Shown here piece after piece: positions 7,841-32,072 of a stretch of 32,998 nucleotides of DNA; position 1 is the stretch's first letter, and every line of letters starts with the position of its first letter. The stretch is from positions 1 to 32,998 of the forward strand of contig VGLH01000038.1 of assembly GCA_016866785.1 (NCBI GenBank). Direction: 5' to 3'. Made by a program: the position numbers and the translations under genes. This DNA comes from Candidatus Poribacteria bacterium (GTDB lineage: Bacteria; Poribacteria; WGA-4E; GCA-2687025). A model generated the notes under the pieces. The model was not told the origin of the DNA, searched no databases, and saw only the letters and a list, made by a program, of their open reading frames with translations.

Positions 7841-7867
7841 GTCACTCGCTCCGATGCCGCAGGCACA

Positions 7868-11452: not shown

Positions 11453-11529
11453 GTCTTTGCTCCCGGTCCGGCGTATGGACCTCTCCGAGGAGCCACCCGC
11501 CCCAGTCGCGCCCAGCGCCTGGCGCGCGT

Positions 11530-12591: not shown

Positions 12592-13334
12592 CAAGAGCCT
12601 CCCAGGCTGTCGAGCACCGAGTCTATCTCACCGGCGATGCATGTGAAGATGGGCGTATCGCGCTCCGTGTACCGGCTCCCTTCGGACCCGCGCAGCTCCT
12701 GAACCAGGTCGAGGAAGTCCTCCAAGTGGTCCGTCTCGAACGCGACGACGAACTCCTGGTCGTCCAAGCCGAACGAGTAGGTCGTGTTCAGCTTGACGCT
12801 CTGGTACTTGTGGCCGATCTCGATGTGCTCGTTCATCATCCCCTGGCGAGCGTGTGGCGTCAGCAGGTACCACGCGCGCGTCTTGACGAACGGGTAGACG
12901 ACGAGGTACTTGGCGTCGGTCACGTGGATCTCGAGCCGGTTCCCTTCCTGCCCAGCGTGGATGTGACGGTCGACGTAGACCGACCGCTTCGTCATCGACA
13001 GGTAGGAATGCCGCGTCGTTACATAGGCTCCCAAGGCGGTCTTCGCCAGGGCTGTGGACATCTCCGTGAAGTCCTCGAGCCGATAGCTGATCCGCCACAG
13101 CAGGAAGTCGCAGTCGGCGCGCAGACCGAACAGCGTGTAGGGGTAGACCAGGAAGCGCTGGGAGAACTCGTGGTAGACCGCCTGCCACTCCTCCAGCCCG
13201 CGTTGGCGTTCCTCCTTCGGGAGTCGGCGCCAGGCAGGATCGACTTGGTAGAAGGCGAAGTTCACGAACTGGCGAGGTTGAGACTCGGAAGCAGCGGCTT
13301 CTTGGCGACCGGGTCGTTCTGCCATGGGTCTCAT
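12591..13334 (-). CDS. hemQ: Chlorite-dismutase-family heme protein, HemQ/ChdC-like
   Basis: A 247-residue member of the Cld/HemQ family. HemQ oxidatively decarboxylates Fe-coproporphyrin III to heme b. Key positions are readable in the C-terminal half: VVYPFVK supplies the radical-site Tyr147 and Lys151, and MMNEHIEIGHKY supplies the proximal heme ligand His170. The position equivalent to the distal Gln of Firmicute HemQ is Leu182 (SVKLNTTYSFG) and it is not the Arg of true chlorite dismutases, so chlorite breakdown is unlikely. ATGA overlap with the upstream reductase and TGATG overlap with the Ahb-like gene show translational coupling. Start 13334 was kept because of the overlap, but Met4 is also possible. 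With the Ahb-like neighbour it may finish a siroheme-derived heme route. Confidence 0.82.
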   Translation of the reverse strand: MRPMAERPGRQEAAASESQPRQFVNFAFYQVDPAWRRLPKEERQRGLEEWQAVYHEFSQRFLVYPYTLFGLRADCDFLLWRISYRLEDFTEMSTALAKTALGAYVTTRHSYLSMTKRSVYVDRHIHAGQEGNRLEIHVTDAKYLVVYPFVKTRAWYLLTPHARQGMMNEHIEIGHKYQSVKLNTTYSFGLDDQEFVVAFETDHLEDFLDLVQELRGSEGSRYTERDTPIFTCIAGEIDSVLDSLGGS

Positions 13335-15675: not shown

Positions 15676-15947
15676 CGATGATGGGATTCGGCAACGGATT
15701 GGGACTGTGGAACCGGTTGGGCGTGCGTTGTCACGAGGGCATTCGGAGGATCGATGGGAGCGGAGTCCGGGGAGGACGTCGCATAGCCGCGCACGACGGC
15801 GACGTCGGTCGCTTGGTGGTTCACCCGGGACGCCTCGATGGAACCTGATACGCAGGCGACAGAGCTTCCCTGCGGCGAGCGCCGCGGGATCTGCTTCGCC
15901 TGAAAGCGTTGACGAGACCAACACTCCCGACGAAAGGGGACGCTAGC

Positions 15948-18923
15948 ATGAGACAGCGCGCATCGATCCTGAGCACAGCGCTGGCGATTGCTGCTGTCGC
16001 CGCCCTTGGCGGCGCGATCGCCTTTGGCTCGACGCATCTCACGAAACCTCGCTCAGACCGAGCGATCCAGTGGGCGGAATCGCCCCACAACTTCTACCCC
16101 GGCGCGCGGACTCAGACGACGCGAGCCACCTGCGTCAACTGCCACTCCACGGACGGCTTCATCGTCGCGAACTTGGGCGGGGGAACGCTGTCTGCGGAGC
16201 GGCTCGCCAAGCCTCCAGAGTATGGTGTCGGCTGCCCAGCGTGCCACAATGTCGACAGTCCCGAGAACATGCTCGCGCTGCGGGTCACCGGCGACGTCGC
16301 ACTCCCACACGGCGTCAAGGTCTCCGGCGGCGTGTCGGCGGCGTGTATGACCTGTCACAACGCCCGTCGCGGCGTGCCGGAGGAATACGTCAAGACGAGC
16401 GCCCGCGGGACGCACGAGGGCCCGCAGACCGAGATGCTCAACGGCACGGGCGCCATCACGTATGGCAAGCAGATCGGCTCATCCGTCCACACCCTCGTGA
16501 CCTTCGAGGGATGCGTGACCTGCCACAAGGACCTCGGACCCGACAAGGGCGAATATGGCGAAAACCGCATCGCTGGCCACTCCTTCCGGATGAAATGGAA
16601 CGGCGACACGCCCGAGGACCCGCGGGATGACATCGAACACCTCAAGGCGTGCCAGCGGTGCCATCCGGGTATTTCGACCTTCAACATCCCGGCGAAGGGC
16701 GACTACGACGGGAACGGCAAGGTTGAGGGCGTCCAGACCGAAGTCGGAGGGCTGCTGAACATCCTCGCCAAGCTCCTGCCGAACGATGGGGCTGAGCCCG
16801 CGCATCCCGCGATTCCGAGCGACCTGACCAAGACGACGGTCGAGCAGCGGATGGCGAACTACAACTGGACGCTCGTCAACTACGACGGCAGCAAGGGCGT
16901 ACACAACACGGCGTACGCCGTCAACGTCCTGCGGACGACGATCCAGCAGCTCACGGGCAAGAAGCCTGCGGGCGCGGATGCCGTCGGCGCCGCGTTCGTC
17001 GCCAACCGTCCGAACGATTCGACGAGGATCGCCGAGTACTCGGAAGCCTGGAAGGACTCGCCGCACGACTTCGACCCATCCAGTGGAGCGTTCGGCACCG
17101 CGCCGACGACCCCGGCGTGCGTTCAGTGCCACTCCGGCACTTGGTTTGCGAAGATCCAGGGACGCGGCGAGCCGCCTCCGCAGGATCCGCTGCCTCAGCC
17201 GGATAAGCTCGGAATCACATGCGCGGCGTGCCATGAGAGCGAAAACGGCACGGACATCCTCGCCCTCCGCAAGGAAGGTGATGTGACGCTCGCCAACGGG
17301 ACGGTCGTTCAGGCTGGAAGAGCGGGGCTGTGCATGAGCTGCCATAACGGCAGGCGTCCCGATCCCAGCCAATACATCAAGACGTCGTTCCGTGGCACGC
17401 ACGGCGCTCCGCAGGCGGAGATGTTCGCCGCGACGGGCGTCGTCACGTACGGCAAGACGTTCCGCAGCACGTCGCACCTGACGGCGGTGCCAGACACGTG
17501 CATCACGTGTCACCTGAGCCCGACGCTGCCGGCGAACCAGCGTGGCTACCGCAAGGTGGGCGGCCACACGCTCCACATGAGGTGGGACGGCGGAACGCCT
17601 GCCAACGCGAACGATGACATCCAGCATATCGGCGTGTGCCAGAAGTGCCACTCGGACGTCACCGCCGCGACCGGCTTCGACCGGAAGGCGCGCGAGGACT
17701 TCGACGCGGATGGCACCGTCGAGGGTATCCAGAGCGAGATCAAAGGCTTACTCGCCTTGGTCGCGAAGGAGCTCCCGAAGGATGCTAACGGCAACGTGGC
17801 GATTCCGTCGGACCTCAGTCTCACGACCGAGGCTCAGCGGGCGGCGAACTTCAACTACACCGTCGTCGTGAACGACGGTAGCTACGGCGTCCACAACCCG
17901 CTGTTCGCAGCGGACCTGCTCCGCACGACCTACACCGAGTTGACCGGCAAGGCGCTCGTGCCCAAGGGCAAGTCGGTGGCTTGGGATGTCAACGGCGACG
18001 GCGTCATCAACGTCGTCGATCTGGTCCTCGTGGCTCAGCACTTCGGAGAGACGGTCGCGCCAGCCGTGGCGGGCATCTATCCGAATGGCGTGTCGCCGGA
18101 CGTGGATCAGAACGGCAAGGTTGACGTCGAGGACATCATGCGCGTGTCCAACGCCATCGAAGCGGGCTCCGGCGTTGCCGGCGCTGCCGTTGGCGCGACG
18201 GCGTGGCTCGACCTGCAGCGTCTGCCGATGTCGGCTGACGGCGGGCTCGTGCGCGTTGCCGTCCGGGTCTCCGCGGCGGATCGGCTGGCGGGCTACACGT
18301 TGTCCCTCAACTACGACCCGTCCGTGCTGACCCTCGAGGCGATGGGCAACGGGCAATACCTCGCCCGCGATACGAACGCGGTCTACTGGGGTTCGCCCGT
18401 TGTCGACGAGTCAGCCGGGAAGCTGGAGCGGATGACTGCCGTTGCGCTCGGATCGACCGTGCCGGCTGGCAGCGGCGACGAGATCGCCTACGTCACGTTC
18501 CGCGTCCGCGAGTTGGGCGCGCCGGTCGAGAAGTCGATCGCCCTTCGGTCCATCGAGGCGGCGAACCCGAAGGCTCGGTCGCTCGGCGTGACGATCGGTG
18601 CGACCCGGTTCAACCCGGCGAGCGTCGCGTGGCGTCCGGTGCTGCTGCAGAACTATCCGAACCCGTTCAACCCGGAGACCTGGATCCCGTTCGACCTGAT
18701 CGAACGCTCCAACGTCTCGATCCAGATCCTGTCGATGACCGGCGAAGTCGTCCGGCGGATCGACATGGGCCAACTGGACAGCGGCGCGTATCGCACGCGT
18801 GATCGCGCTGCCTACTGGGATGGCAGAAACGACCTCGGCGAGCGAGTTGCCAGCGGCACCTACTTCTACCGCATCCAGGCGGGGACGTTCGGAGCCACAC
18901 GCAAGCTCGTCATCCTGAAGTAA
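15948..18923 (+). CDS. Secreted decaheme cytochrome with dockerin, cohesin and sorting-tail modules
   Basis: A 991-residue exported protein. After a signal sequence (about 1-27) come two tandem five-heme modules: CXXCH motifs at 62-239 and again at 391-568, ten in all. Each module ends in an EF-hand-like loop (DYDGNGKVEG at 252, DFDADGTVEG at 584) and a GVHN(T/P) helix typical of multiheme cytochromes. Then come two dockerin-like repeats (DVNGDGVINVVDLVLVAQHFG from 680, DVDQNGKVDVEDI from 718) and a cohesin-like beta-domain (about 753-888). The C-terminal NYPNPFNPETWIPFDL tail has a FlgD-like fold (902-991), common in Poribacteria-like and FCB secreted proteins. The likely role is extracellular electron transfer while held in a surface assembly. 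The ATG at 15948 has GAAAGGGGA upstream. Domain calls are by motif; heme content is predicted, not shown. Confidence 0.9.
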   Translation: MRQRASILSTALAIAAVAALGGAIAFGSTHLTKPRSDRAIQWAESPHNFYPGARTQTTRATCVNCHSTDGFIVANLGGGTLSAERLAKPPEYGVGCPACHNVDSPENMLALRVTGDVALPHGVKVSGGVSAACMTCHNARRGVPEEYVKTSARGTHEGPQTEMLNGTGAITYGKQIGSSVHTLVTFEGCVTCHKDLGPDKGEYGENRIAGHSFRMKWNGDTPEDPRDDIEHLKACQRCHPGISTFNIPAKGDYDGNGKVEGVQTEVGGLLNILAKLLPNDGAEPAHPAIPSDLTKTTVEQRMANYNWTLVNYDGSKGVHNTAYAVNVLRTTIQQLTGKKPAGADAVGAAFVANRPNDSTRIAEYSEAWKDSPHDFDPSSGAFGTAPTTPACVQCHSGTWFAKIQGRGEPPPQDPLPQPDKLGITCAACHESENGTDILALRKEGDVTLANGTVVQAGRAGLCMSCHNGRRPDPSQYIKTSFRGTHGAPQAEMFAATGVVTYGKTFRSTSHLTAVPDTCITCHLSPTLPANQRGYRKVGGHTLHMRWDGGTPANANDDIQHIGVCQKCHSDVTAATGFDRKAREDFDADGTVEGIQSEIKGLLALVAKELPKDANGNVAIPSDLSLTTEAQRAANFNYTVVVNDGSYGVHNPLFAADLLRTTYTELTGKALVPKGKSVAWDVNGDGVINVVDLVLVAQHFGETVAPAVAGIYPNGVSPDVDQNGKVDVEDIMRVSNAIEAGSGVAGAAVGATAWLDLQRLPMSADGGLVRVAVRVSAADRLAGYTLSLNYDPSVLTLEAMGNGQYLARDTNAVYWGSPVVDESAGKLERMTAVALGSTVPAGSGDEIAYVTFRVRELGAPVEKSIALRSIEAANPKARSLGVTIGATRFNPASVAWRPVLLQNYPNPFNPETWIPFDLIERSNVSIQILSMTGEVVRRIDMGQLDSGAYRTRDRAAYWDGRNDLGERVASGTYFYRIQAGTFGATRKLVILK

Positions 18924-19009: not shown

Positions 19010-20083
19010 ATGACGACGAATGCCCCAGGCCGCTCGCGCAGGCGACAGTGGATCCGATGGTCCCGCCTCTTGGCGGCATTCGTAACCACCCTTCTCGGCG
19101 TATTCGGGTGTCAGGACGCGCTCGATCCTGTTGACCAGCAACCGCCGAAGACCGACTCGCCGCCGTTCGCCGTCGGTGCGCCACAGCTCGAGCTCACGAA
19201 CCATCCGCACGGCTGGCAGAAGCTCGACTGCACAACGTGTCACACGACGCGACTGGTCGCGGGACACGGCGGCTTGGGTGGCGATCAGTGCGTCTCGTGC
19301 CACGGATTCAATGGAACGCAGGCGGCACAGTGCAACTCTTGCCACGGTCGCCAGTCGTCAACGGGCGACCCGGACTCGGGGCTGCACGCGTTCCACGTCG
19401 GTACGTCGTCCTTCGGATGCGACACGTGTCACGCCAAGAACATCCACCGCAACGGGGGGCTGGAGCTCCAGATCGCGCAAGGGGCTCGCTTCGTGAAGGC
19501 AGCGTCCGAGCTCAACAGCTCCGATGCGGTTCCCGAAGTCTTCGCCACGCCGGGATGTACCGACGGCGGATGCCATGAGGCGCGCGCGTGGAAGGTTGAT
19601 GCCTGCACGTCCTGTCATGCGACGCCGCCTGACAGCCCCATGCACGCAAAGCATCTGGCGCGTGGTGCGCTCACGAAGGGAGGACCCCTATCCTGCCGCG
19701 ATTGCCACGCCGGGAACCAGCACGATGCCGACAAGCGTGCGGGCATCATCGAGGTCGGGGGAGGGGCGAAGTGGAAATCGTGGGATGGCTTCACCGGCGC
19801 GTGCGAGACCGCATGCCACGCGAAGTTGGAGCAGTGGGATTGCCAGTCCTGCCACGGCTACCCGCCGTCGACCGGCAAGCACACGACCCACGCGGAAGAT
19901 TACAGGGTCGAGTGCGTCGTGTGCCACGAGGGTCATACGCACTCCTATCAAGCGGCTGTGGCTCCCAAGGACGCGCGCGCTACCGTCGAGGTGAAGTTCC
20001 TCTTCCAACGCGGTACATGGGACTCCGCCGCTGGCACATGCGCGAACACCGGATGCCATCCGACGCGGTCCTGGAGAAACTGA
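19010..20083 (+). CDS. Multiheme c-type lipoprotein, CxxxxCH/CxxCH family, 11 sites
   Basis: A 357-residue lipoprotein: a basic N-terminus, a hydrophobic stretch and lipobox VFGC (Cys about 34). It has eight CXXCH motifs plus one CETACH and two CX4CH (CTDGGCH, CANTGCH). Their order is regular. Four CXXCH come first, then two modules of about 80 residues, each [long-spaced motif, CXXCH followed by a PP-x-H loop, CXXCH followed by an HxH-like segment], then a terminal CX4CH. This matches the Geobacter-type CxxxxCH/CxxCH domain. The protein is probably outer-membrane anchored, in the conduit or on its outer face. The larger lipoprotein at 22775 has the same plan with six modules. Whether the CX3CH and CX4CH sites bind heme depends on the maturation system. 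Confidence 0.88.
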   Translation: MTTNAPGRSRRRQWIRWSRLLAAFVTTLLGVFGCQDALDPVDQQPPKTDSPPFAVGAPQLELTNHPHGWQKLDCTTCHTTRLVAGHGGLGGDQCVSCHGFNGTQAAQCNSCHGRQSSTGDPDSGLHAFHVGTSSFGCDTCHAKNIHRNGGLELQIAQGARFVKAASELNSSDAVPEVFATPGCTDGGCHEARAWKVDACTSCHATPPDSPMHAKHLARGALTKGGPLSCRDCHAGNQHDADKRAGIIEVGGGAKWKSWDGFTGACETACHAKLEQWDCQSCHGYPPSTGKHTTHAEDYRVECVVCHEGHTHSYQAAVAPKDARATVEVKFLFQRGTWDSAAGTCANTGCHPTRSWRN

Positions 20084-20406
20084 CGTCGGTCGCTCGAGAT
20101 GCGCCCCACCTCACGTAGGAGTCCTTCACAGGCTCCGCTAGTCCGGCTGTTTTCAAGGTAGTAGCGTCGACGAACGAGTGTCCCGAGGGCGATCGTCGGT
20201 GCGAGCGCTGTGTCCGGGATTGCGCCCGGACAGCACTGGTTGCGGATGCGGCACAGAAGGCGGCGGAACCCGATTCCGGCGCGAGAGAACGGCAGACACC
20301 CGATGACAACCCGCCGGATGGTGTCCCAGAACCAGGACGATGATAGGCTAATGGTCCTGGTCCCGGACGACAGATGCGTGCGTTTCAACCCGGAAGCAGG
20401 TGGCTT
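20084..20406. other. Intergenic region with two hairpins before the conduit operon
   Basis: These 323 bases hold no convincing gene. Two structured elements are visible: TGTCCGGG/CCCGGACA (20211-20232, 8-bp stem, 6-base loop) and ACCAGGAC/GTCCTGGT (20331-20361, 8-bp stem, 15-base loop). The second lies about 45 bases before the barrel gene's start and could affect its translation. No promoter close to consensus was found, although transcription of the barrel-to-cNMP gene block may start here. Confidence 0.4.
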
Positions 20407-21720
20407 GTGAGTCGACTGTCCGTGTTGTGGGCGTTGGCAGTCACCGTGGCTGCCGGTGTCTCCTACCCCGCGACGGCGATGTGGCGCGCGGACAGCAGCC
20501 TGACATCGACTCTCTGGGCTCGCGAGCACTACTTACCGGCGATCTCAGACACCGCAGCGGACGACGATCCGAACACCACCGACTCGCAATTCCTCCAATA
20601 CGGTCGTCTGGGATTGTCTGTCTTCCCCGAAGAGCGCGACAGAACACGCGTTCAGTTCTACGCCTCCGGTCGTTGGCGTCAGGCGTTGACGGGCGACCTC
20701 GACGCGGTCGGTGGGGACGACGTGCGCGTGTTCGAAACGTATGCGGACGTCTCGAACGTGAAGCACGGCGTTCGACTGAGAGCCGGTCGCCAGTTCCTGC
20801 CGAACGCGGCAGGCTTCTGGCAGCTCGATGGGGCTCACCTGACGATCCGCACCGGGTCGGTTACGGGTTCCGCCTATGGCGGTGTCGGAGGGGAATCGTG
20901 GCGGCTGAATGAGGCGGACGCGATGCTCGTCGGCGGGCTGATCGAGGCGCAAGCTGCGAGCATCGGGCGTCTGCGCGCCGGGGCGCTCTACCGCCGCGAC
21001 ACTTCGGACACAGGCGATCTGAACACGCTCTACTTGACCGGCGGCTTCGACGCGGCGAGCGGCGGCTTCGCGCGCATCCATCCCGGCATCCAACGACGCT
21101 CCATCTCTGCCGACTTCGCGTATGATCCTTCCCTCGGCAGACTCGTCCGGGCGACGGCACTGGCAGACGCCGACATCTCCCTTGCCACAATCGTCGCGCA
21201 CGTCCGGTACGACACCCCACAGTTCGCGCCTGACTCGATCTTTCGCGTCTTTGCTCAAGAAGCGGAGCGTGAAGGGTCGCTGACGGCACGCGTCCATGTC
21301 ACAGACAGTCTCGACGGCTCGATCCGTCACACAGAGCAGCGGTTCGACGACGGTTCCGCCCGTCGCGACGCGGTTGAGGCGTCGGTGCGGATCGATGGGG
21401 AATCCATCGCTCAGGTCGGCATGGAATGGCTCCGCTGGGAGGAAACGCGTCGGCGGTACATGTTCTTCCGGGTTCAGAAGGAAATCGTGCCGCACGTGTC
21501 GGTGGGCTTCGGAAGCGCTGTCAATCTCTATCGTTTCGCCGACGAAGAGACGGACGCAGCGGCACGGTCGGCGCACGCCGAAGTGCGCGCTCGCGTGAGC
21601 GACAACCTGAGGTCCTACGTCCGAATCGAACGCGGGCGGAACCGGGACTATCGCCGCGTCACTCGCGCGTTGGCATCGATCCAGTTGGTGTTCTCGGCAA
21701 TGGGCGGAGTGCCGCGATGA
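20407..21720 (+). CDS. Candidate outer-membrane beta-barrel of a porin-cytochrome conduit
   Basis: A 437-residue protein with a signal peptide (SRLSVLWALAVTVAAGVSYPATA) and then alternating polar/hydrophobic strands rich in Arg, Tyr and Trp. LRAGRQFLPNAAGFWQLDGAHL resembles the GRQ...LDGA strand pairs of large Gram-negative barrels. No heme motif is present. The last strand (RALASIQLVFSAMGG) has the amphipathic form of barrel C-termini. Its stop overlaps the ATG of the 13-heme cytochrome (ATGA), so the two are translationally coupled. It is flanked by multiheme lipoproteins, the arrangement of MtrB/OmbB-type conduits. No direct sequence match to MtrB is claimed. Start: GTG at 20407 with AGGTGG upstream, though an in-frame ATG at 20374 is possible. 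Confidence 0.7.
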   Translation: MSRLSVLWALAVTVAAGVSYPATAMWRADSSLTSTLWAREHYLPAISDTAADDDPNTTDSQFLQYGRLGLSVFPEERDRTRVQFYASGRWRQALTGDLDAVGGDDVRVFETYADVSNVKHGVRLRAGRQFLPNAAGFWQLDGAHLTIRTGSVTGSAYGGVGGESWRLNEADAMLVGGLIEAQAASIGRLRAGALYRRDTSDTGDLNTLYLTGGFDAASGGFARIHPGIQRRSISADFAYDPSLGRLVRATALADADISLATIVAHVRYDTPQFAPDSIFRVFAQEAEREGSLTARVHVTDSLDGSIRHTEQRFDDGSARRDAVEASVRIDGESIAQVGMEWLRWEETRRRYMFFRVQKEIVPHVSVGFGSAVNLYRFADEETDAAARSAHAEVRARVSDNLRSYVRIERGRNRDYRRVTRALASIQLVFSAMGGVPR

Positions 21721-22778
21721 GGCGCGACATTGCAGCAGCCATCGGATTGCTCGCTCTCCTCATCGCCGGGGCGATGGGAGCAGCGGCGCTGCCGCTCGTC
21801 GGCGGTTCGCGGTCCGAGCTGGTGTTCAGCCATGAGCGCCACGTGAACATGGATATCGCATGCGCCGACTGCCACGCCGCCGACAAGAGCACGCAGGCGG
21901 CTGACGACCTGATTCCACGGGAAGAGTCGTGCATGCGCTGCCACGACCGGACGCAGGGCTGCGAGCTCTGCCACAAGGACGTGGACCATGTGACTCCGAT
22001 TCAACCTCGGAGCTACGGGTTCCGGTTCGTGCACACGACGCACTTGAAACCCGACGTGAACCCGAACGGGTGCGACACCTGCCATGCCGCGTTGCGCAAG
22101 AGCACCGACGCGAACGACTCGTTCCCCATCGGTCTGTCGCAGTGCCGATCGTGCCATCAGCACCAGGATGACATGTCCCGTGGAGATCGCTGCGGCACGT
22201 GCCACGATACGCTCAGTCCGCGCCGAGCCCTGCCTGCCTCACACACGACGGACTGGTTGACGCAACACGCGGGGGCGGCTGCGCGATCCGGATCGCTCTG
22301 CGACGTATGCCACCGTGGGACGGTGCGCGCGGATTTCGTGCAGGGCCCGCACGTATCCGAGTCGGTCGCGACGGCGAATCATGCGACGAGCGGACCCGTT
22401 GCTGACTGTGCCGACTGCCACCGAGCCGACGTCTGGTCCTCATCGGTGCACGATGCCGGCTACCTGCAAACGCACCCCACGGACGCGCTCCGAAGCGCCG
22501 TCACCTGCGAGAGTTGCCACGCGCGCGACGAATGTCAGTCATGCCACGCGCAGGCGGGATTGACCTATCTCGGTACACATCCGCCGACCTTCATGTTCGA
22601 CCACGCATCGGAGGCTCGTAGGAACCTCGGAGCCTGTGCAGCCTGCCATCAAGAGTCCCAGTGCATCACGTGCCACCAGACCATCAACCCACATGGCGAC
22701 GGGTGGGACGACGACCGTCTGGGACGCAACATGGCGCTGTGCGGCAAGTGTCACTCTAGCGGAGTGCCATTCGAATGA
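21717..22778 (+). CDS. Periplasmic 13-heme c-type cytochrome
   Basis: A 353-residue exported cytochrome with an N-terminal hydrophobic signal or anchor (AAAIGLLALLIAGAMGAAALPL) and thirteen canonical CXXCH motifs, about one per 25 residues, with no long-spaced variants. The first part looks like cytochrome c7/c3 modules (LVFSHERHVNMDIACADCH). Additional His residues (FSHERH, FVHTTH, MFDHAS) are available as distal ligands. The ATG lies in an ATGA overlap with the barrel gene, and the stop overlaps the next lipoprotein ATG in the same way. This three-gene coupling suggests fixed stoichiometry. It is a natural candidate for the MtrA-like electron carrier on the periplasmic side of, or inside, the barrel. 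Confidence 0.9.
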   Translation: MRRDIAAAIGLLALLIAGAMGAAALPLVGGSRSELVFSHERHVNMDIACADCHAADKSTQAADDLIPREESCMRCHDRTQGCELCHKDVDHVTPIQPRSYGFRFVHTTHLKPDVNPNGCDTCHAALRKSTDANDSFPIGLSQCRSCHQHQDDMSRGDRCGTCHDTLSPRRALPASHTTDWLTQHAGAAARSGSLCDVCHRGTVRADFVQGPHVSESVATANHATSGPVADCADCHRADVWSSSVHDAGYLQTHPTDALRSAVTCESCHARDECQSCHAQAGLTYLGTHPPTFMFDHASEARRNLGACAACHQESQCITCHQTINPHGDGWDDDRLGRNMALCGKCHSSGVPFE

Positions 22779-24862
22779 GATTCCGCCTGGGACTGCTCTT
22801 CGCGTGCCTTGCCGTCGTTGCAGCGACGGTCGGATGCAGGACCGTACCGACTGGCTCGCGTGAGTTGGCTCGCGTCAGCAAGAAGACGCTACCCGATTTC
22901 AAGGCTCCCCTGCTCAAGTGGCATCAGGCGAAGTTCCTGCGTACGCAGGCGCGATCCGCGCCCGCTCTGGACGAGAAGACGCATCCACACGGCTGGAAGA
23001 AGGGCGACTGCGCTCGCTGCCACCAGCTTTCGCCGACTGCCAACTTGAAGGACTGTTCGAGCTGTCACGGAGCCAACGGGCTTTCGGATGCGCCGGATAC
23101 ATGCCAGTCGTGCCACAACGTCGCCAGCCGCGACGGTCGACCGAACGACCGTATGCACAGCGCGCATATGACGACCACTTCGCGCGCGATGGAGTGTTGG
23201 CTCTGCCACCCTCGTCAGGAGACGGGCAAACACGCCAATGGTTCACGCGACGTGCTGCTCTTCGAAGGGGCGCTCGTCCCAGCGAGCACTCGCAACGAAC
23301 CCGCGTCCTGTGCCGACACGACCTGCCATGAGACCCGCGTCTGGAGTCCCGCCGCCTGCACGACATGCCACGGCTATCCGCCATCGACTGGGCTGCACCA
23401 AGCGCACCTGGTCAAGGACAGAGAGTTGCGAACCGACATCGCGTGCGAGTCCTGCCACGGAGGCTATCGGCACGAGTCGGGGGTTGTGGACATTTCGCCA
23501 GGCGTCGCGGGGTTTGAGTCGTACCGAGCGCCGACCGGGTCCTGCATGGCGACCTGTCACGAGAACACGGCTCTGATGGCGCGCGCGGCGCGTCCGACTC
23601 CGGCAACATCGTCGTGGGATTGCACGAGCTGCCACGAATATCCGCCGCCATCGGGGAACCATCCGGCGGCGGGTCACACGGTCGTGCCGTGCGCGTCCTG
23701 TCACTCGAATCACACGCACACCGATGCCGGAGTGAAGACGCCCAAGGTCTTCCGTGGTGTGCCCGTGCAGGTTTCGTTCGCCGCCGGTGGCACATTCCGG
23801 GACGGGCTGTGCGGCGCCGTGTGCCACGAATCGATGATCTGGGGCGAGAGTTGTGGCGACTGCCACGGGTATCCACCTCAGACGGGTCGTCACGTCGCCC
23901 ACGTCGAGAAGGGCAGAATGCTGTGCCGGGAGTGTCACACGGGCAACGACCACGATCTCGTCAAGGAGACGGGCGAGATCGACGTTCGCGGCGACTTCGT
24001 CTTCGACTCGATGACCGGCTCCTGCCAGACGACATGCCATGAACCGAAGGGCGAGTGGGGATGCGATTCGTGCCACGGCAATCCGCCGTCTGACCGCATC
24101 CACCCGGCACACAGGAACCCACGGGGTCGGTACTGGGACCTGGCGGCGATGTCCACTCAGTCCGGGATAGCCGACCTGGCAGCCTCTGGCATCGGCTGCG
24201 CGATCTGCCACGCGGATCACAAGCATTCGGCGACGGCAGCGACGAATCCGAAGGACTTCAGCGCGGCTCATGTCGATCTGTCCCTCGGAGACTTCATCCG
24301 CTCCAACGAGCGGTGCCAGGTGGCTTGCCACGAGCCCTTCTCGTGGCAAGAGCGGTGCAACGACTGCCATGAGACGCCGCCGAAGACCGGCGACCACCTC
24401 GATCATGTCGACAAGCCGAATGTGATGTGCGTGTCCTGCCACGGTACGATCTCGCACGACCGCCCGGTCACCGCGCCGCCGGGCTACTATGACCCGGACG
24501 GAGTCGTGACGATTGCCGCGTTCGACGAAATGACCGGAGACTGCCAGTCGAACTGCCACCTGAACAACGACGGTTCCCAGGAAATGCGTCGGTGGGATTG
24601 CCGATCTTGCCACGGAACGCCACCGACGACCGGCGCTCACGCCGACCACGACGCCTTCAACATGGGATGCCGAACGTGCCACGCAGGTCACGTGCACAAC
24701 TCGTCGGCGGTCATCCATCCGCTCCAGTTCTCGCGCGCGGCTGTGGAACTGTCACTGTCCGGCACGTATGATCGAGCGTCCCGTTCGTGTTCGGACGTCG
24801 GTTGTCACCGCAACGATCTCTGGCTGTCGGAGACGGAACGGACGTTGCTGCGATCACGCTAG
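22775..24862 (+). CDS. Giant CxxxCH/CxxCH multiheme lipoprotein, 23 candidate sites
   Basis: A 695-residue lipoprotein with lipobox ATVGC (Cys about 21). It carries sixteen CXXCH, five CX3CH (CMATCH, CGAVCH, CQTTCH, CQVACH, CQSNCH) and two CX4CH (CADTTCH, CSDVGCH). The plan is strictly modular. Four leading CXXCH are followed, from residue 179 to about 671, by six tandem three-site modules averaging 82 residues, then a terminal CX4CH. Each module starts GxC..xCH, continues W(D/G)C..CHGxPP.TG.H and ends C..CH.xHxH. Both lipoproteins begin HPHGWxKxDC..CH after the anchor. It is translationally coupled to the 13-heme gene and is probably the surface-side, wire-like partner of the conduit. A periplasmic-facing location on the outer membrane cannot be excluded. 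Confidence 0.9.
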   Translation: MRFRLGLLFACLAVVAATVGCRTVPTGSRELARVSKKTLPDFKAPLLKWHQAKFLRTQARSAPALDEKTHPHGWKKGDCARCHQLSPTANLKDCSSCHGANGLSDAPDTCQSCHNVASRDGRPNDRMHSAHMTTTSRAMECWLCHPRQETGKHANGSRDVLLFEGALVPASTRNEPASCADTTCHETRVWSPAACTTCHGYPPSTGLHQAHLVKDRELRTDIACESCHGGYRHESGVVDISPGVAGFESYRAPTGSCMATCHENTALMARAARPTPATSSWDCTSCHEYPPPSGNHPAAGHTVVPCASCHSNHTHTDAGVKTPKVFRGVPVQVSFAAGGTFRDGLCGAVCHESMIWGESCGDCHGYPPQTGRHVAHVEKGRMLCRECHTGNDHDLVKETGEIDVRGDFVFDSMTGSCQTTCHEPKGEWGCDSCHGNPPSDRIHPAHRNPRGRYWDLAAMSTQSGIADLAASGIGCAICHADHKHSATAATNPKDFSAAHVDLSLGDFIRSNERCQVACHEPFSWQERCNDCHETPPKTGDHLDHVDKPNVMCVSCHGTISHDRPVTAPPGYYDPDGVVTIAAFDEMTGDCQSNCHLNNDGSQEMRRWDCRSCHGTPPTTGAHADHDAFNMGCRTCHAGHVHNSSAVIHPLQFSRAAVELSLSGTYDRASRSCSDVGCHRNDLWLSETERTLLRSR

Positions 24863-24871
24863 GACGACGCG

Positions 24872-25984
24872 ATGTATGCGCCCATCTGTTGCGACCGAGC
24901 CCGCCTCGTGCTTCTGGCGATCGCGTGCGCAGTACCGCTGGTTCTCGTGGCGACGCCGAGTAGCGCCGCGATCAGCATGTCGACGAACCGCGGATGCATG
25001 CTCGCCAACTGCCACGGCACGCCGGGCGGAGATCGCACGCTGCCCGACGGAAGCCGCGGCTCTGCGCATGTCGACGAAGGGGAGCTCGAATCCTCGGCGC
25101 ATCGGGGTCTCGCATGTCTGGAGTGCCACACGGATATCGTCGCGATTCCGCATGAAGCGGCGCTCTCCTCGGTGAACTGCGAGGCGTGCCACTACGAGAG
25201 CAACCCTCGCGGCGCGCCGAATATCGACCAGTTCCGGCAGTACGAGGAGAGCATCCACGGCGAGCGCGCTCGCGAGGGCGATCCGAAGGCTCCCAGGTGC
25301 TCGACGTGCCACGGTCAGCACAACATCAAGGGGAAGAAGGCGAAGGACTCGCGGGTACATCGCCAGAACGAGCCGTCCACGTGTGGCGAGTGCCATGACG
25401 AGCAGGCATCGGAGTTCCAGGAGGGGGTTCACGGAACGGACCTGGCGACGGGGAACCTGGACGTGCCGTCATGCGTCACGTGTCACGGCATCCATCGGAT
25501 TCGACCTCACACGGACCCCGAATCGCCCGTCCACGAGAGCCATATCGCGGAGACGTGCTCGTCCTGCCATGGCGCCGTGACGATTGCCGACAAGTACGAC
25601 TTCAGCGTGAAGCGCGTCGAGACGTACGCCGGGAGCTTCCACGGGTTCGCGAGCAAGTTCGGAGTGACCAGCGTCGCGAACTGCGCTAGCTGCCACGGAA
25701 TCCATCGCATCCTTCCGCACACCGATGAGCGGTCGCAGGTGCATCCAAGCAACCTGGGTGCCACATGCGGTCAGAGGGACTGCCACCCCAAGGCTGTCGC
25801 CGGATTCGCTAGCGGACAGGTGCATCTGGGGGTGGCGGCTCCTGCCCCGTTGGGCGTGCGACTGATCCGCGTGCTCTATATCGTGCTGATCGCCGGGATC
25901 ATCGGAGGCATGCTGTTGCACAACGCGTTCGACCTCGCCGCGCAGGTGCGGCGACGCAAGAGCGCGGCTGGTCCGGAGGCTTAG
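24872..25984 (+). CDS. Membrane-anchored multiheme cytochrome c, 9 candidate sites
   Basis: A 370-residue exported cytochrome with a signal peptide and a C-terminal transmembrane helix (about 333-353, VLYIVLIAGIIGGMLLHNAF) followed by a basic tail (RRRK), so its heme domain faces the periplasm. It has seven CXXCH and two CX4CH (CMLANCH near the N-terminus, CGQRDCH near the end). Repeats of CHGIH-RI-PHTD and the SFHGFASKFG...NCASCHGIH segment match the multiheme subunit found beside b-type cytochromes in delta-proteobacterial Cbc-like quinol oxidoreductases, where the last motif is normally CGKCH. It lies four bases upstream of the cytochrome b gene. Role: accept electrons from that membrane subunit. 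Confidence 0.88.
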   Translation: MYAPICCDRARLVLLAIACAVPLVLVATPSSAAISMSTNRGCMLANCHGTPGGDRTLPDGSRGSAHVDEGELESSAHRGLACLECHTDIVAIPHEAALSSVNCEACHYESNPRGAPNIDQFRQYEESIHGERAREGDPKAPRCSTCHGQHNIKGKKAKDSRVHRQNEPSTCGECHDEQASEFQEGVHGTDLATGNLDVPSCVTCHGIHRIRPHTDPESPVHESHIAETCSSCHGAVTIADKYDFSVKRVETYAGSFHGFASKFGVTSVANCASCHGIHRILPHTDERSQVHPSNLGATCGQRDCHPKAVAGFASGQVHLGVAAPAPLGVRLIRVLYIVLIAGIIGGMLLHNAFDLAAQVRRRKSAAGPEA

Positions 25985-25988: not shown

Positions 25989-26660
25989 ATGGCGCACCAT
26001 CGTCACGTGTCGCAGGTCCCGGCTGGCATCGACGCGGCGGTTCGCCTGACGGGGAACGAACGGATCCAGCACGCGATCATGTTCATCGCGTTCACGCTCC
26101 TGGCGATCAGCGGGTTCATGACGCATTTGCCGAGGGCATGGGTCCGCGTTCTGGGGCTGGCATCCCCGGCGGTGTTCGAGTTTCGAGGCGATCTCCATCG
26201 AGTCTGCGGCATCGCCCTCTGCGTGGTCGGCATCTATCACGTGGCGTACTTGCTCGGCACTCGTCGCGGTCGTTGGCAACTCCGCGAACTGCTGCCTCGG
26301 AAGCGAGACTGGTTGGATTTCGTCGCGACGATGAGGTACTACCGGCGACCCAGCGAGCACCCGCAGCCCGAGTACGGTTGGTACAACTACGCCGAGAAAG
26401 CCGAATACTGGGCGCTGGTATGGGGCACGTTCATCATGGCGGTAACGGGCTTCATCCTATGGTTGGAGGAGTACAGCCCCAAGATCGTCATCGATGTGTC
26501 CGCCGTCGTGCATCGGTACGAGGCGCTCTTGGCGGTTCTGGCAGTCTTCGTGTGGCATTTCTATCACGTCCACCTATCGCCTGAGGTGTTCCCGATGAGC
26601 CCCGTTTGGCTGACGGGTCGCGAGGCGTCGGGGACCCACGAGCACGCGTCGAAAGGGTAG
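25989..26660 (+). CDS. Cytochrome b561-like membrane subunit (FdhI/thiosulfate reductase type)
   Basis: A 223-residue integral membrane protein with four predicted helices (about 29-46, 67-88, 141-160, 176-196). Histidines in or next to the helices (His28, His70, His84, His175, His190, His193) are suitable ligands for two b hemes, as in formate-dehydrogenase gamma and related DUF4405-type cytochromes. It would move electrons between the menaquinone pool and a periplasmic partner. It sits between the membrane-anchored 9-site cytochrome and the cNMP-binding cytochrome, with gaps of four and three bases. The three genes together encode a candidate inner-membrane quinol:multiheme-cytochrome complex. 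Confidence 0.9.
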   Translation: MAHHRHVSQVPAGIDAAVRLTGNERIQHAIMFIAFTLLAISGFMTHLPRAWVRVLGLASPAVFEFRGDLHRVCGIALCVVGIYHVAYLLGTRRGRWQLRELLPRKRDWLDFVATMRYYRRPSEHPQPEYGWYNYAEKAEYWALVWGTFIMAVTGFILWLEEYSPKIVIDVSAVVHRYEALLAVLAVFVWHFYHVHLSPEVFPMSPVWLTGREASGTHEHASKG

Positions 26661-26663: not shown

Positions 26664-29474
26664 ATGCGAGGCACAGACGACACCAGTCCCACGTCGGAGC
26701 CCATCGCGCTGTCGCGCGATGAGATCGTTGCGCGGCTCAGGCGGATGGAACTGTTTCGGGGAGTCTCAGAGGAGGGGCTCAACGTCTTTGCCTCGCTCGT
26801 CGACATCCTGCACGTCGGGCCCGGCGAGCGCCTGTGCCACCAGGGCGATCCCGGCGAGTCGATGTGGTGCATCCTGTCGGGATCGGTTCGGATCACGGCG
26901 GATGGCGCGGCGATTGCCGACCTGACCGAGGGCTCGGTCGTCGGCGAGATGTCCATCCTCGACGGCTCTCCTCGCTCCGCCGACGTCGATACGACGGCGG
27001 ATACGATCATCGCCCAATTGACGCACGCCCACTATGCCGAAGCGTTCACGCTGAGCGCGGACGCCGCTCTGACGCTGGTTCGCAACATCAGCAAGGTGCA
27101 GCAGAACCGTCTGCGTACGACCAACGAGCGAGCCATCGCCACCGCGCTGGAGGCGGAGCGAGCCGAGCGGCTGGAGCGTCGCTACCGCCGGTTCTTCCTG
27201 ACCGGGCTTTTCGCCGTTGGCGGCGTGTTGCTGGCTCTGTTGGTCACCGCGGAAGTGACGTCGCAACCGAGCTTCTGCGGCTCGCACCACTACTTGCGAC
27301 CGTATTACGAATCATGGCAGCGGTCCTCGCACAGTGAGGTCGGATGCCCGGAATGCCACTTCGCGCCCGGCTTCAAGGGCTATGTCGTCCGTAAATACAA
27401 GGCGCTCGCGGAAGTCGCTATCTACATCACGAACACGTACAAGGGCGAGCCCCGCGCCGAAGTCGGCGACGAAGGCTGTTTGCGCTCCGGCTGCCATTCT
27501 GACGCGCGACCCCCGGGCGACATCGAATACAAGGGGCTCCTCTTTTCGCACCGGAAGCATCTGCCCTGCGGACAGCACCACCTGACCATGAACCGCGGCG
27601 CCCTCAGCGCGATGCCGTCGAACATGACGACGCGCACGGGAACGCCACCGGAGGGTCACGAGAAGTTCCTGGAGGCACTGCCGCGAGGGCGCATCCTGCG
27701 GTGCGTGAGCTGTCACTCGCAGATCGTTCAAGGCAGCCACATGGAGGTGACCCAGAGCACCTGCTTCCTGTGTCACTTCAAGGCGGCGGCGGATTCGGAG
27801 CCCGTCTCGGGATGTCCGTCGTGCCACCAGGCGCCCAAAGAGACGATCTACATCAACAACATCGCGTTCAAGCACGAGGAGTTCACGAGTCGCGGCGTGA
27901 CGTGCACGCAGTGCCATACGGATGTCGTGCGCGGAGATGGCGCGGTCAAGGAGGAGCGCTGCTTCCAGTGCCACGACCGACCCGAGAGGCTCCGCGAGTT
28001 CGAGAATCACAAGCTCATTCACGGCGTCCACGTGACCGAGCACAAGCTCGACTGCCTCATCTGCCACTCCGAGATCGAGCACAAGATCGAGTCCATCGCG
28101 ACGACGATCCGATCCGACTGCCAGCAATGCCACGAGAGCGTCGAGCGGATGTACATGGGCGTGGCGGACGGCGTCGAGGTGACTCCGGATCCCATGTTCC
28201 TGGCGCGTGTCGCCTGTGATAGCTGCCACTCGTCGCATGTGGGCGTCGAGATGACCAGCAGCACGCGGCTGCTCAAGCCAGGCGCATGCGCGAGCTGCCA
28301 CGGAGACGCTTACGAGGGCATGCAGGAACGCTGGCTGGAGGGCGGCAGGCGATTGATCGCCGAGATGGAGGCGCGGGAGAGCCGTGTCCGAGGGACCGTC
28401 TCAGCCGCCGCATCGTCGAGAAGCGAGGTGGACCCAGCCGTCCGATCCGCCAGGTCGCTGTTGGCGGCTGCGTCCACCAACGTGGACCTGTTGCGCAAGG
28501 GGAACCCCGTCCACAACGTGCGGTTCGCCGAACGCGTCGCTTCGGTCGCGAACGCGCAGCTCACGATGGCGACCAACGTGCTCAATGGGCGCTCCGCGCC
28601 GGTGGCTCCGCTCCAGCTAGCCGCGCTGTCCGCGCCCGAAGGTGGACGCTGCGGGACGTGCCATTTCGGAATCGAGAGCGTCTCGAAGCAGGTCTACGGA
28701 ACGCTGTTCAGCCACGCGCCGCACATCACCAAGGCAGGACTCAAGTGCGCCCAGTGCCATTCCTCGGAGCCGCAGGAGCTTCCGGGACATGGCAAGACGC
28801 TGGTTAGCGCAGACGACTGCAAGTCGTGTCACCACTCGCCGACCACCAAGTCGGGCTGCCTTTCGTGTCATAGCGGAATCCGCTCGATTCGGGTCGCGTC
28901 GAAGCCGACGTTCGACCACGATCGACACGTGTCGGGTCAGCGCCTCGCCTGCTCGCAGTGCCACGCCAGTGACACCTCGAAGCGCTTCACTGGCGATTGC
29001 GTGTCCTGCCATCACAGGCAGACCGTGGACGTGGCGAAGAAGTGTACGACGTGCCACGCGACGCAGTCGGCGTTCGCCGCCGGCACGAACCTCCCGAGCG
29101 GATCGGCGGGTCTGCATGTCAAGGCGCAGGTCGCGTGCGGCGAATGTCACCGTCGAGCCGGAGAGCGGATCGTAACGATGGCGTGCGGTACGTGCCACAC
29201 GACTGGCAACTATGACGCGATACGGAAGACGTGGCAAGACAAGACGCGCGCCCAGCTCGCAGAACTGGCGCGCGAGCGGACACGGTTCCAAGCAGCGGGC
29301 GGGGCCCGATCCGTCACGAGCGCGACGCTGCAAGCGATGCGGGCAGCAGATGCCGCCGCGAGCCGCATCGCTGCCGATGGCAGCTCCGGCGTTCACAACC
29401 CCGAGTACGTCGACACGATCCTGTCGCAGGGAATCGAAGCGTACCGGCGGGCGAACCCGTCTGCCGCGCGCTGA
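26664..29474 (+). CDS. Cyclic-nucleotide-binding domain fused through one TM helix to a multiheme cytochrome
   Basis: A 936-residue fusion. Residues about 25-140 form a Crp-type cNMP-binding domain whose phosphate-binding cassette GEMSILDGSPRSADV keeps Glu95, Arg104 and Ser105. There is no DNA-binding domain. A helical charged linker (about 141-176) leads to one TM helix (177-197). The periplasmic part begins like NapC/NrfH (SFCGSHHYLRPYYESWQRSSH, then CPECH), but its first heme motif has His for the second Cys (CGSHH, 205-209), and a second CGQHH occurs at 302. Nineteen CXXCH and one CX4CH (CLRSGCH) follow, then an ADGSSGVHNPEY helix. With no signal peptide and one TM, the sensor is cytoplasmic and the hemes periplasmic. 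It probably works with the cytochrome b encoded three bases upstream. Ligand-gated electron transfer is inference. Confidence 0.9.
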   Translation: MRGTDDTSPTSEPIALSRDEIVARLRRMELFRGVSEEGLNVFASLVDILHVGPGERLCHQGDPGESMWCILSGSVRITADGAAIADLTEGSVVGEMSILDGSPRSADVDTTADTIIAQLTHAHYAEAFTLSADAALTLVRNISKVQQNRLRTTNERAIATALEAERAERLERRYRRFFLTGLFAVGGVLLALLVTAEVTSQPSFCGSHHYLRPYYESWQRSSHSEVGCPECHFAPGFKGYVVRKYKALAEVAIYITNTYKGEPRAEVGDEGCLRSGCHSDARPPGDIEYKGLLFSHRKHLPCGQHHLTMNRGALSAMPSNMTTRTGTPPEGHEKFLEALPRGRILRCVSCHSQIVQGSHMEVTQSTCFLCHFKAAADSEPVSGCPSCHQAPKETIYINNIAFKHEEFTSRGVTCTQCHTDVVRGDGAVKEERCFQCHDRPERLREFENHKLIHGVHVTEHKLDCLICHSEIEHKIESIATTIRSDCQQCHESVERMYMGVADGVEVTPDPMFLARVACDSCHSSHVGVEMTSSTRLLKPGACASCHGDAYEGMQERWLEGGRRLIAEMEARESRVRGTVSAAASSRSEVDPAVRSARSLLAAASTNVDLLRKGNPVHNVRFAERVASVANAQLTMATNVLNGRSAPVAPLQLAALSAPEGGRCGTCHFGIESVSKQVYGTLFSHAPHITKAGLKCAQCHSSEPQELPGHGKTLVSADDCKSCHHSPTTKSGCLSCHSGIRSIRVASKPTFDHDRHVSGQRLACSQCHASDTSKRFTGDCVSCHHRQTVDVAKKCTTCHATQSAFAAGTNLPSGSAGLHVKAQVACGECHRRAGERIVTMACGTCHTTGNYDAIRKTWQDKTRAQLAELARERTRFQAAGGARSVTSATLQAMRAADAAASRIAADGSSGVHNPEYVDTILSQGIEAYRRANPSAAR

Positions 29475-29564: not shown

Positions 29565-32072
29565 ATGCCTGACTATGAGCCGCTCGACCTCTCCAGCCTC
29601 TGCAACGCCGATCAGTCCGTCCTAGGGCAGAACGCATCTCAGCTTCCGACCGGGCAGCAGACGCTCCAGGGGCTGCCGTTCCTTCTTGGACCCCCCGACG
29701 GTGCAGGTCCGTCAGTCATCGGTCTGGGTAGCGGACTCCGATCCGAGCCCGTCACGATCATGGTCGGCAAGACGGCACGGTACATCCTGTTCGCCCACCG
29801 CCTGCTCGAGTCGAAGATTCACGAAGGCGATCCCGTCGGCCGCGAGTGCGGTGAGTACGTGTTCACGTACGGCGATGGCAGTGCGGTCGTCGTGCCGATC
29901 CGAGAACGGCTCGAAATCGGAATCATCCCGTCTGGCTGGGGGCAGCTCGCCCTCCTGGCGCACCCCGACATGAAGGACGGGCTGATGCCGCGCCACGAGG
30001 GCAACTGGGGTGGCGCGGGGAACCGGCAAACCGAGGCGATTCAGGCATGGCCCCGCTGGTTCTACCTGTTCCCATGGGAGAACCCGCACCCGGAGTCGGC
30101 GGTCCAGTCGATCATCGTACGACCGTCGGGCCTGCGTTTCCTCATCGCGGCGATCACGCTGAGCCATCTGGAGGAGTATCCCTTCACGCGCAGCGCCAAG
30201 CGCGCCGTGAAGATCGTCCTGCCCCAAGAGGAGGACGCTGCGAAACGCTTCGGACTCGAAGTCGAGGTCGATCGCGGCGTTGCGACCTATCCCTTCTCGC
30301 TGCCGCAGGCGTCGAGCGACGAGTACCTCGCCGACTCGATGCACGGATGGGGGGAACGCCAGAACCAGGCGTCGAGCCCGGCATATGTCGAGATCGCCGC
30401 GACACCGTCTGCGACCGTGACGGTCAAACAGGACGGCGATGCGCTCGGTTCCGCCCAATGGGGAGAACTACAGGACAAGGGCTCCGTTGAGGCGAGCCCA
30501 CGGCTCAAGATGATCGTTGTCGACGAGGGACGGAACTGGGTCCGCACGCAGGTGCTGGACGACTACACCGGCAGGCCGGTTCCGTGCCGTATCCACTTCC
30601 GATCGCCGGACGGCGTTCCCTACCAGCCGCATGGTCACCACGCCCACGTCAACACGAACATGGGCACGTGGCACATCGACATCGGCGGCGATGTGCGCCT
30701 GGGACAGATCACGTACGCCTACATCGGCGGGAAGTGCGAAGGTTGGCTCCCGCGTGGCGACGTGATCGTCGATATCGCGCGCGGATACGAGTACGAGCCG
30801 ATTCGGCAGCGCGTCCGCATTGAGCCGGGGCAACAAGAGCTGACGTTCCGGCTCAAGCGCTTCGCCAACATGAACGACGAGCGCTACTTCAGCGGCGATA
30901 CTCACGTGCACTTCCTGTCGACGCAGGGAGCTCATACGGAGGCGGCAGGCGAAGGCGTGAACGTCATCAACCTGCTGCTCTCGCAGTGGGGGCATCTGTT
31001 CACGAACACGGAGGAGTTCACGGGCGCTCCCAGTGTCGCGCCGGACGGCAAGACCGTCGTCTACGCGACTCAGGAGAACCGACAGCACATCCTGGGGCAT
31101 CTGACGCTGCTGGGGCTCAAGGAGCCGGTGAACCCGTGGTGCTCCGATGGTCCCGGCGAGGCGGAACTGGGCGGGAACCTGGAGACCACGCTCTCGCGAT
31201 GGGCGGACGCGTGCCACGCGCAGGGCGGGACGGTCGTCATCCCACACATTCCCAATCCGAACTGCGAACCGGCGGCGCTCATCACGACGGGACGCGCCGA
31301 CGCAGCGGAATGGCTCGTTCACGACTCCTACATGCACTTGGAGTACTACCGCTACCTGAACTGCGGGTACAAGCTCCCCATTGTCGGTGGAACGGACAAG
31401 ATGACGTCGGACGTGCCGGTAGGCATCTACCGGACGTATGTCTACATCCCCAACGACGAACCGTTCACCTATGACACGTGGTGCAAGAACCTGCGCGCCG
31501 GACGGACGTTCCACAGCGGCGGACCCCTGCTGCGGTTCAAGGTAGAGGGCAAACCCATCGGCAGCACGATCAACCTGCCGGGCAACGGGGGAACCGTCAC
31601 CGTCGAGGCGTCGGCGGACAGCGTCCTGCCGTTCCACTCGCTGGAGATCGTCCTCAACGGATCGGTCGTCGCGCGGACGGAGGACGCGAAGGGCACGCGA
31701 CACCTGGCGCTGCGCGAGAGCATCCAGGTGGATCGCCACTCGTGGATCGCCGCTCGCTGCGCGGGCCCCAACTACTGGCAGAGCACGCGACATCACGACG
31801 GTTGGGGACGCGGGATCATGGCGCACACGTCGCCGGTCTACCTTGCTGTCGGCGGCGACTGGTGGATGTTCGACATCGGAGCAGCGAACTATCTGCTGAC
31901 GCTGCTGAACGGTGGGATCGACTACATCCGCAAGCGCAGCGTCCAGTGGGAACCGGGTACGGTGACCCACCACCACGGTCACGACGACCACCTCGCCTAT
32001 CTCGAAGAGCCCTTCCGCCAAGGGATCGAGGCGATCCACAAGCGCATGCACTCGCTGGGCATACCGCATTAG
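29565..32072 (+). CDS. CehA/McbA-type metallohydrolase (PHP-like), multidomain
   Basis: An 835-residue protein. The N-terminal part (about 1-300) is beta-rich and contains GLPFLLGPPDG and a GEYVFTYGDGS segment seen in large uncharacterised secreted or glycan-related proteins. A middle beta-sandwich region (about 310-430) includes a CRIHFRSPDG carboxypeptidase-regulatory-like strand set. A PHP-like CehA/McbA domain starts at SGDTHVHFL (about 443), with later IPHIPNPNCE and GGTDKM (about 608) as further likely metal-site segments. The C-terminus carries THHHGHDDHLAYL. CehA and McbA hydrolyse small carbamates or amides, but that substrate cannot be transferred here. No signal peptide is seen. 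The ATG has GAAGGGAG upstream. It is followed 22 bases later by a creatininase-family gene. Confidence 0.8.
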   Translation: MPDYEPLDLSSLCNADQSVLGQNASQLPTGQQTLQGLPFLLGPPDGAGPSVIGLGSGLRSEPVTIMVGKTARYILFAHRLLESKIHEGDPVGRECGEYVFTYGDGSAVVVPIRERLEIGIIPSGWGQLALLAHPDMKDGLMPRHEGNWGGAGNRQTEAIQAWPRWFYLFPWENPHPESAVQSIIVRPSGLRFLIAAITLSHLEEYPFTRSAKRAVKIVLPQEEDAAKRFGLEVEVDRGVATYPFSLPQASSDEYLADSMHGWGERQNQASSPAYVEIAATPSATVTVKQDGDALGSAQWGELQDKGSVEASPRLKMIVVDEGRNWVRTQVLDDYTGRPVPCRIHFRSPDGVPYQPHGHHAHVNTNMGTWHIDIGGDVRLGQITYAYIGGKCEGWLPRGDVIVDIARGYEYEPIRQRVRIEPGQQELTFRLKRFANMNDERYFSGDTHVHFLSTQGAHTEAAGEGVNVINLLLSQWGHLFTNTEEFTGAPSVAPDGKTVVYATQENRQHILGHLTLLGLKEPVNPWCSDGPGEAELGGNLETTLSRWADACHAQGGTVVIPHIPNPNCEPAALITTGRADAAEWLVHDSYMHLEYYRYLNCGYKLPIVGGTDKMTSDVPVGIYRTYVYIPNDEPFTYDTWCKNLRAGRTFHSGGPLLRFKVEGKPIGSTINLPGNGGTVTVEASADSVLPFHSLEIVLNGSVVARTEDAKGTRHLALRESIQVDRHSWIAARCAGPNYWQSTRHHDGWGRGIMAHTSPVYLAVGGDWWMFDIGAANYLLTLLNGGIDYIRKRSVQWEPGTVTHHHGHDDHLAYLEEPFRQGIEAIHKRMHSLGIPH

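Follow-up and report, generated by a model that had tools for sequence, protein, structure and literature searches.

A survey of 30 families of cyclic nucleotide-binding (CNB) domains lists oxidoreductase, channel, kinase, ATPase, and CBS partners and never mentions a cytochrome (PMC2246266). In the Bact_Pyrredox family, a CNB domain likewise sits on a redox protein, but the partner is a pyridine nucleotide-disulphide oxidoreductase, a flavoprotein rather than a membrane cytochrome (PMC2246266). Among cytochromes, the quinol dehydrogenases CymA, NapC, and NrfH have an N-terminal transmembrane (TM) anchor and a NapC-type start, with 4–5 hemes in CymA homologs (PMC6295460). ImcH of Geobacter is an inner-membrane cytochrome whose NapC-like part lies next to a third TM helix, its homologs carrying 6–10 hemes (PMC6295460), while CbcL unites a heme domain and six TM helices in one chain (PMC6295460), and both CbcL and CbcBA are quinol-linked complexes of Geobacter (PMC6295460; PMC10553843; PMC12307469). 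Known second-messenger control of multiheme respiration operates at the level of gene expression; a cGAMP and riboswitch regulon controls metal-reduction genes in Geobacter (PMC6456294). A full-text literature search found no work coupling a CNB domain with a multiheme or NapC cytochrome. The gene described here combines these known parts in what is apparently an undescribed and functionally suggestive arrangement, found in a single genome.

The gene lies in the window, i.e., the whole stretch of 32,998 nucleotides that was analysed, which comes from a metagenome-assembled genome (MAG) of Poribacteria. Its open reading frame (ORF) starts with an ATG at 26664 and stops at 29472–29474, these coordinates being exact, and contains the following features:

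26664..29474, + strand: cNMP-binding/TM/NapC-like 20-heme cytochrome fusion gene (single ORF, 936 aa)
26811..27038, + strand: cNMP-binding domain, residues 50–125 by Pfam (PF00027, AlphaFold2 beta-roll, Foldseek)
26943..26993, + strand: phosphate-binding cassette GEMSILDGSPRSADVDT with E95 and R104 (compare bacterial consensus GEMALLDGEPRSATVVA)
27057..27179, + strand: C-helix and signalling linker helix, residues 132–172 (AlphaFold2 helix; alignment to L007, L015, and L016)
27189..27260, + strand: single TM helix, residues 176–199 (hydropathy 175–200; AlphaFold2 helix 176–199)
27204..27446, + strand: NapC/NirT-type N-terminal cytochrome region, residues 181–261 (PF03264)
27276..27290, + strand: altered first heme motif CGSHH (codons TGC GGC TCG CAC CAC)
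27345..29198, + strand: heme-motif region with 19 CXXCH and 1 CX4CH, residues 228–845 (motif count, per-site conservation)
27567..27581, + strand: second CXXHH motif (CGQHH), in a 36-aa insert common only to L028, a cytochrome locus of Candidatus Poribacteria co234_bin45

The encoded protein thus runs from a CNB domain through a long helix and one TM helix, the only such segment by hydropathy (175–200), into a NapC/NirT-type start and a multiheme region. The preliminary description had proposed the order CNB domain, helical linker, one TM helix, and hemes, as well as 19 CXXCH motifs plus one CX4CH; Pfam, hydropathy, and AlphaFold2 confirmed the former, and a motif count on the translation confirmed the latter. 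Its placement of the sensor in the cytoplasm and of the heme output in the periplasm is supported as the predicted topology by the basic N-side of the TM helix (RLERRYRRFF) and by the position of the hemes on the opposite side. Pfam detected no HTH profile in the protein, the CNB domain being followed instead by the TM and heme domains. GC3 is even over the whole ORF, joint included. A two-gene arrangement with a separate internal cytochrome start was rejected: the ORF has no internal ATG near the CNB/cytochrome junction, and the lone GTG (residue 145) lacks ribosome-site context.

By profile, fold, and cassette, the protein is a member of the CNB superfamily. PF00027 scored 58.2 bits against a cut-off of 27.5 (E 8e-16), and the domain was recovered at 7.7e-17 in a search of its own genome. 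The AlphaFold2 beta-roll has a pLDDT of roughly 80–93 for the most part and 60–70 at the cassette (residues 91–110), and Foldseek matched the model to CNB domains of CNG/SthK channels, PKG/PKA, and CRP-type proteins. The intact Glu/Arg cassette that had been claimed was borne out: GEMSILDGSPRSADV is canonical, retains glutamate E95 and arginine R104, and is near the consensus GEMALLDGEPRSATVVA published for “Other_bacterial” CNB domains (PMC2246266). The predicted ligand is cAMP or cGMP, with other ligands possible (the PycTIR CNB domain is among the matches); a cyclic nucleotide is plausible because the same genome encodes four class III cyclase domains. The SthK and MloK1 channels, found among the structural and sequence matches, also have a CNB domain acting on a membrane protein, but there it is C-terminal to the pore, whereas here it is N-terminal to an electron carrier.

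The sensor had been called Crp-type; that it is a CNB domain stands, while its nearest kin are the sensors of CNB-SpoIIE phosphatases. In a tree, the window domain branches with the CNB-SpoIIE subfamily of the same Poribacteria family. These PP2C/RsbU-type phosphatases (L003, L007/L135, L015, and L016) share the CNB domain and the helical linker, the latter up to about residue 173, and are 45–48% identical in the window's own genome (two pieces gave 45% over residues 11–151 and 48% over residues 70–174). They end in a SpoIIE domain, confirmed after the linker in L135 and L015 (L003 is cut by a contig end), whereas the fusion ends in the TM helix and 20-heme cytochrome, and Pfam found no SpoIIE/PP2C catalytic domain in it. 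An amidohydrolase-like gene (L135, 1202–2437) adjoins the CNB-SpoIIE gene of the window's own genome.

From about residue 171 onward, the protein is 48% identical over its length to the co234_bin45 cytochrome (L028/L009). A GTDB-wide scan returned some 350 relatives of this half, from Gemmatimonadota, Zixibacteria, Neomarinimicrobiota, Aminicenantes, Calditrichota, and other phyla, with the same TM helix, NapC-like start, and heme series; unlike the window protein, none of those examined has a CNB domain. Homology to the sensors ends at residue 173, and that to the cytochromes begins at 171, placing the breakpoint directly before the TM helix. Judged from these alignments, the joint is an in-frame domain swap and not an obvious assembly join, and the meeting of the breakpoints at residues 171–173 suggests that the sensor moved together with its whole signalling helix and was set before the TM helix. 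By parsimony, with no other carrier among the genomes examined, the fusion would be a gain in one lineage.

In the cytochrome half, PF03264 scored 33.2 bits against a cut-off of 24.1, and Cytochrom_c3_2, Cytochrome_C7, and Cytochrom_CIII were all above their cut-offs; the NrfH model matched the NapC-type region at 9.5e-9, yet under its cut-off, and solved structures gave weak partial matches only. Composition-preserving shuffles of this half contained a mean of 0.15 and a maximum of 4 CXXCH motifs (5000 shuffles). The CX4CH is a genuine site, since all 43 aligned homologs carry a heme motif at that position, mostly CX4CH. Of the NapC/NirT features, PF03264 and the TM anchor are present, and the membrane-adjacent first CXXCH and the tetraheme (4–5) module are absent. 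The protein differs from CymA, NapC, and NrfH in its 20 hemes, its CXXHH first motif, and its cytoplasmic sensor, and from ImcH, to whose class it cannot be assigned, in having one TM helix, 20 hemes, and a CNB domain.

The change in the first heme motif and the CGQHH in the 36-aa insert had been overlooked in the preliminary description. At the membrane-proximal position, 42 of 43 homologs have a CXXCH-like motif, while the window protein and L028 have CGSHH. The pairing of CGSHH with CGQHH was seen in these two Poribacteria only, the two motifs lying at protein residues 46 and 143 of L028 (5965–8253); their recurrence there rules out a sequencing error. The pair could represent a single-thioether heme or a new metal site. 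As far as the alignment tells, heme 1 is altered or replaced in the lineage of the window protein and L028, independently of the sensor. Heme 1 of NapC-type proteins accepts electrons from quinol. With this motif altered, electron entry may be via the neighbouring cytochrome b, and the classic NapC quinol site may not be where gating would act.

The fusion gene belongs to an eight-gene electron-transfer cluster of six multiheme proteins (10, 8, 13, 16, 7, and 20 motifs), a b-type cytochrome, and a protein of unknown fold. The other seven genes are as follows, with identities to their counterparts in genome G005:

15909..18923, + strand: 10-heme cytochrome with dockerin/cohesin and FlgD/T9SS-like C-terminal tail (55%)
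19010..20083, + strand: 8-heme cytochrome, lipoprotein-like N-terminus (45%)
20374..21720, + strand: conserved protein of unknown fold, signal-like N-terminus (41%)
21714..22778, + strand: 13-heme cytochrome (45%); the ORF opens at 21426, and a signal-like segment suggests a start near 21714
22775..24862, + strand: 16-heme cytochrome, lipoprotein-like N-terminus (42%)
24872..25984, + strand: 7-heme cytochrome, C-terminal TM helix (51%)
25989..26660, + strand: cytochrome b (Ni_hydr_CYTB/FdnI-like; PF01292, 1.4e-15), directly upstream of the fusion gene, four TM segments (68%)

The gene order in G005 is the same (10-heme, 8-heme, unknown protein, 13-heme, 16-heme, 7-heme, cytochrome b, cytochrome), with each counterpart 41–68% identical and an additional gene separating the 10-heme and 8-heme cytochromes. 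In both clusters, cytochrome b touches or overlaps the start of the cytochrome; in G005, the cytochrome counterpart (48% identical) has no CNB domain and directly abuts cytochrome b, so that the difference at this junction is the CNB coding part. The cluster resembles an electron conduit, as the preliminary description had proposed for the protein, in its six multiheme genes, two of them lipoprotein-like and one with a surface-type tail; the lipoprotein-like cytochromes and this tail would fit a conduit to the cell exterior. The protein at 20374..21720 had no Pfam match and gave an uninformative AlphaFold2 model (pLDDT 30); it is possibly a candidate outer-membrane barrel. The combination of dockerin, cohesin, and FlgD/T9SS-type sorting tail on the 10-heme cytochrome is an unusual surface-display arrangement, and its relative in G005 is full-length.

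The operon neighbours resemble CbcL and CbcBA of Geobacter in pairing a multiheme cytochrome with a HydC/FdnI-type cytochrome b. In the CbcL/MtrH/MtoC type, however, an N-terminal heme domain is fused to a six-TM b-type cytochrome, whereas in the window cytochrome b has a gene of its own upstream; the fused protein itself matches neither CbcL nor CbcBA. In different phyla, the NapC-like cytochrome is repeatedly accompanied by a 7- or 9-heme protein and a b-type cytochrome, which are sometimes fused. In loci L028–L107, a 7/9-heme membrane cytochrome, a b-type cytochrome (often fused), and a NapC-like cytochrome with 16–24 hemes form a widespread module for which no name was found; several Gemmatimonadota have adjacent extra copies.

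The search for other fusions of cNMP_binding, TM, and cytochrome domains suggested in the preliminary description recovered the window genome but no second example. No fused CNB domain emerged when 80 GTDB loci of many phyla were screened with a CNB profile; the only two CNB genes in them (L070 and L091) were separate and on the opposite strand. The fusion is absent from 84 other Poribacteria genomes, leaving the window genome the sole carrier among 85. In samples of six further phyla (395, 395, 396, 294, 133, and 149 genomes, about 1,760 together), no fused CNB match was found at a cytochrome start with E <= 1e-16 and a limited number of candidates per genome, a setting under which a weak or strongly diverged CNB domain may escape detection. 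A further 40 N-termini, most of the exceptionally long frames among them, likewise contained none. Long CNB matches reaching residues 178–190 in other phyla (G729, G705, G656, and G108) were rejected as frames without heme motifs, one of which continues into a patatin-like protein. The same cytochrome family shows other N-terminal additions in the Planctomycetota (L151 and L152) and Acidobacteriota (L145 and L146) samples, namely additional hydrophobic segments preceding the NapC-like TM helix, in frames read from stop to stop with undefined starts.

The best interpretation that can be inferred is gated electron flow: an inner-membrane NapC-like 20-heme cytochrome would have gained a cytoplasmic sensor that gates respiratory electron flow, at a rough probability of 0.45. 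In such a protein, cAMP or cGMP from the cell's own class III cyclases would bind the CNB domain and move the C-helix and linker, the part expected to carry the signal onward to the phosphatase in CNB-SpoIIE relatives. This movement could shift or dimerise the TM helix and thereby alter either how electrons enter the periplasmic heme chain from cytochrome b or the quinol pool, or how the complex assembles, tuning respiratory electron flow post-translationally to the energy or carbon status of the cell. Several observations argue for gating: the canonical cassette and CNB fold; a linker homologous to that of CNB-SpoIIE phosphatases, where the C-terminal enzyme presumably takes its input from the CNB domain; homology breakpoints that precede the TM helix and leave the signalling helix whole; the four cyclase domains of the genome; a cluster syntenic with G005 apart from the added CNB domain; and family neighbours (7/9-heme and b-type cytochromes) that resemble the quinol-linked CbcBA and CbcL. 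Three points count against it. With a single carrier among the genomes examined, nothing points to purifying selection on the two halves as a unit; AlphaFold2 confidence is low at residues 165–179, the linker/TM boundary, just where the model would need to place the coupling; and the CXXHH at heme 1 may remove the usual NapC quinol site as the point of control. The stricter form of this reading, a cyclic-nucleotide-gated electron conduit in which a cytoplasmic cyclic nucleotide exerts direct transmembrane allosteric control on a multiheme cytochrome, is put forward only tentatively.

Among the alternatives, the one that survives best, though unlikely, is that the CNB domain serves as an assembly, oligomerisation, or localisation module with no nucleotide control of electron flow. 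Dimerisation through the C-helix, which is frequent among CNB domains and so favours this explanation, might hold the cytochrome complex together or bring the CNB-SpoIIE phosphatase or other CNB proteins near; such proteins are encoded in the genome as possible partners, and all examined family members manage without the domain and are presumably functional. The fully canonical ligand cassette, however, is something that a pure scaffold need not keep.

That cassette also bears on the improbable case in which one lineage carries a neutral or degenerate fusion with no regulatory effect. The restriction to one genome, with a CNB domain in no homolog examined, is what such an accident might leave, but the cassette is intact, the frame is open, and GC3 is the same as in the remainder; moreover, at 45–48% identity to its nearest relatives, the domain is not a fresh copy, yet the cassette has been kept.

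Reverse signalling, in which the redox state of the periplasmic hemes would act through the TM helix on CNB affinity or on contact with a cytoplasmic partner and let the cell sense terminal-acceptor availability, is likewise given little chance. A continuous helix-TM layout can transmit either way, the CNB half derives from a regulatory family, and the changed motif at heme 1 could reflect a shift to a sensor-like role. Set against this, CNB domains are ligand-sensing input modules in the surveyed families (PMC2246266), and the gene occupies the place of a respiratory cytochrome in its cluster.

A chimera of the MAG assembly joining a CNB gene to a cytochrome gene, the error that the preliminary description had named as grounds for dropping the proposal, is very improbable. 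The MAG does comprise 291 contigs with 3.4% contamination, and two further CNB-phosphatase pieces run to a contig edge. However, the reading frame passes unbroken through the join, which falls exactly between linker and TM helix; the cytochrome b before it and the cytochrome after it keep the order and contact that they have in G005; composition is even; and the CNB relatives in the same genome are not the source of a mis-assembly, being only 45–48% identical.

Gating, if true, would place a messenger-binding domain inside the electron carrier itself and allow control in seconds; the gated conduit would do for electrons what a cyclic-nucleotide-gated channel does for ions, and its transmembrane control of electron flow would be directly testable with one purified protein. 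Even without gating, the gene documents the movement of a sensor-linker cassette from a phosphatase to a cytochrome within one bacterial family.

Other genes of the window were also noted. Directly after the fusion gene lies a CehA/McbA-family metallohydrolase (29565–32072) that is not common to G005. Upstream of the cytochromes, an opposite-strand heme-synthesis cluster (10193–13334, minus strand) encodes a glutamyl-tRNA reductase, a NirDL/Ahb-like siroheme decarboxylase, and a chlorite-dismutase-like protein. At 7304–9322 on the minus strand, a small stand-alone CNB gene adjoins an Ion_trans_2/RCK potassium channel gene, a pair that may add another cyclic-nucleotide-linked membrane protein to the window.
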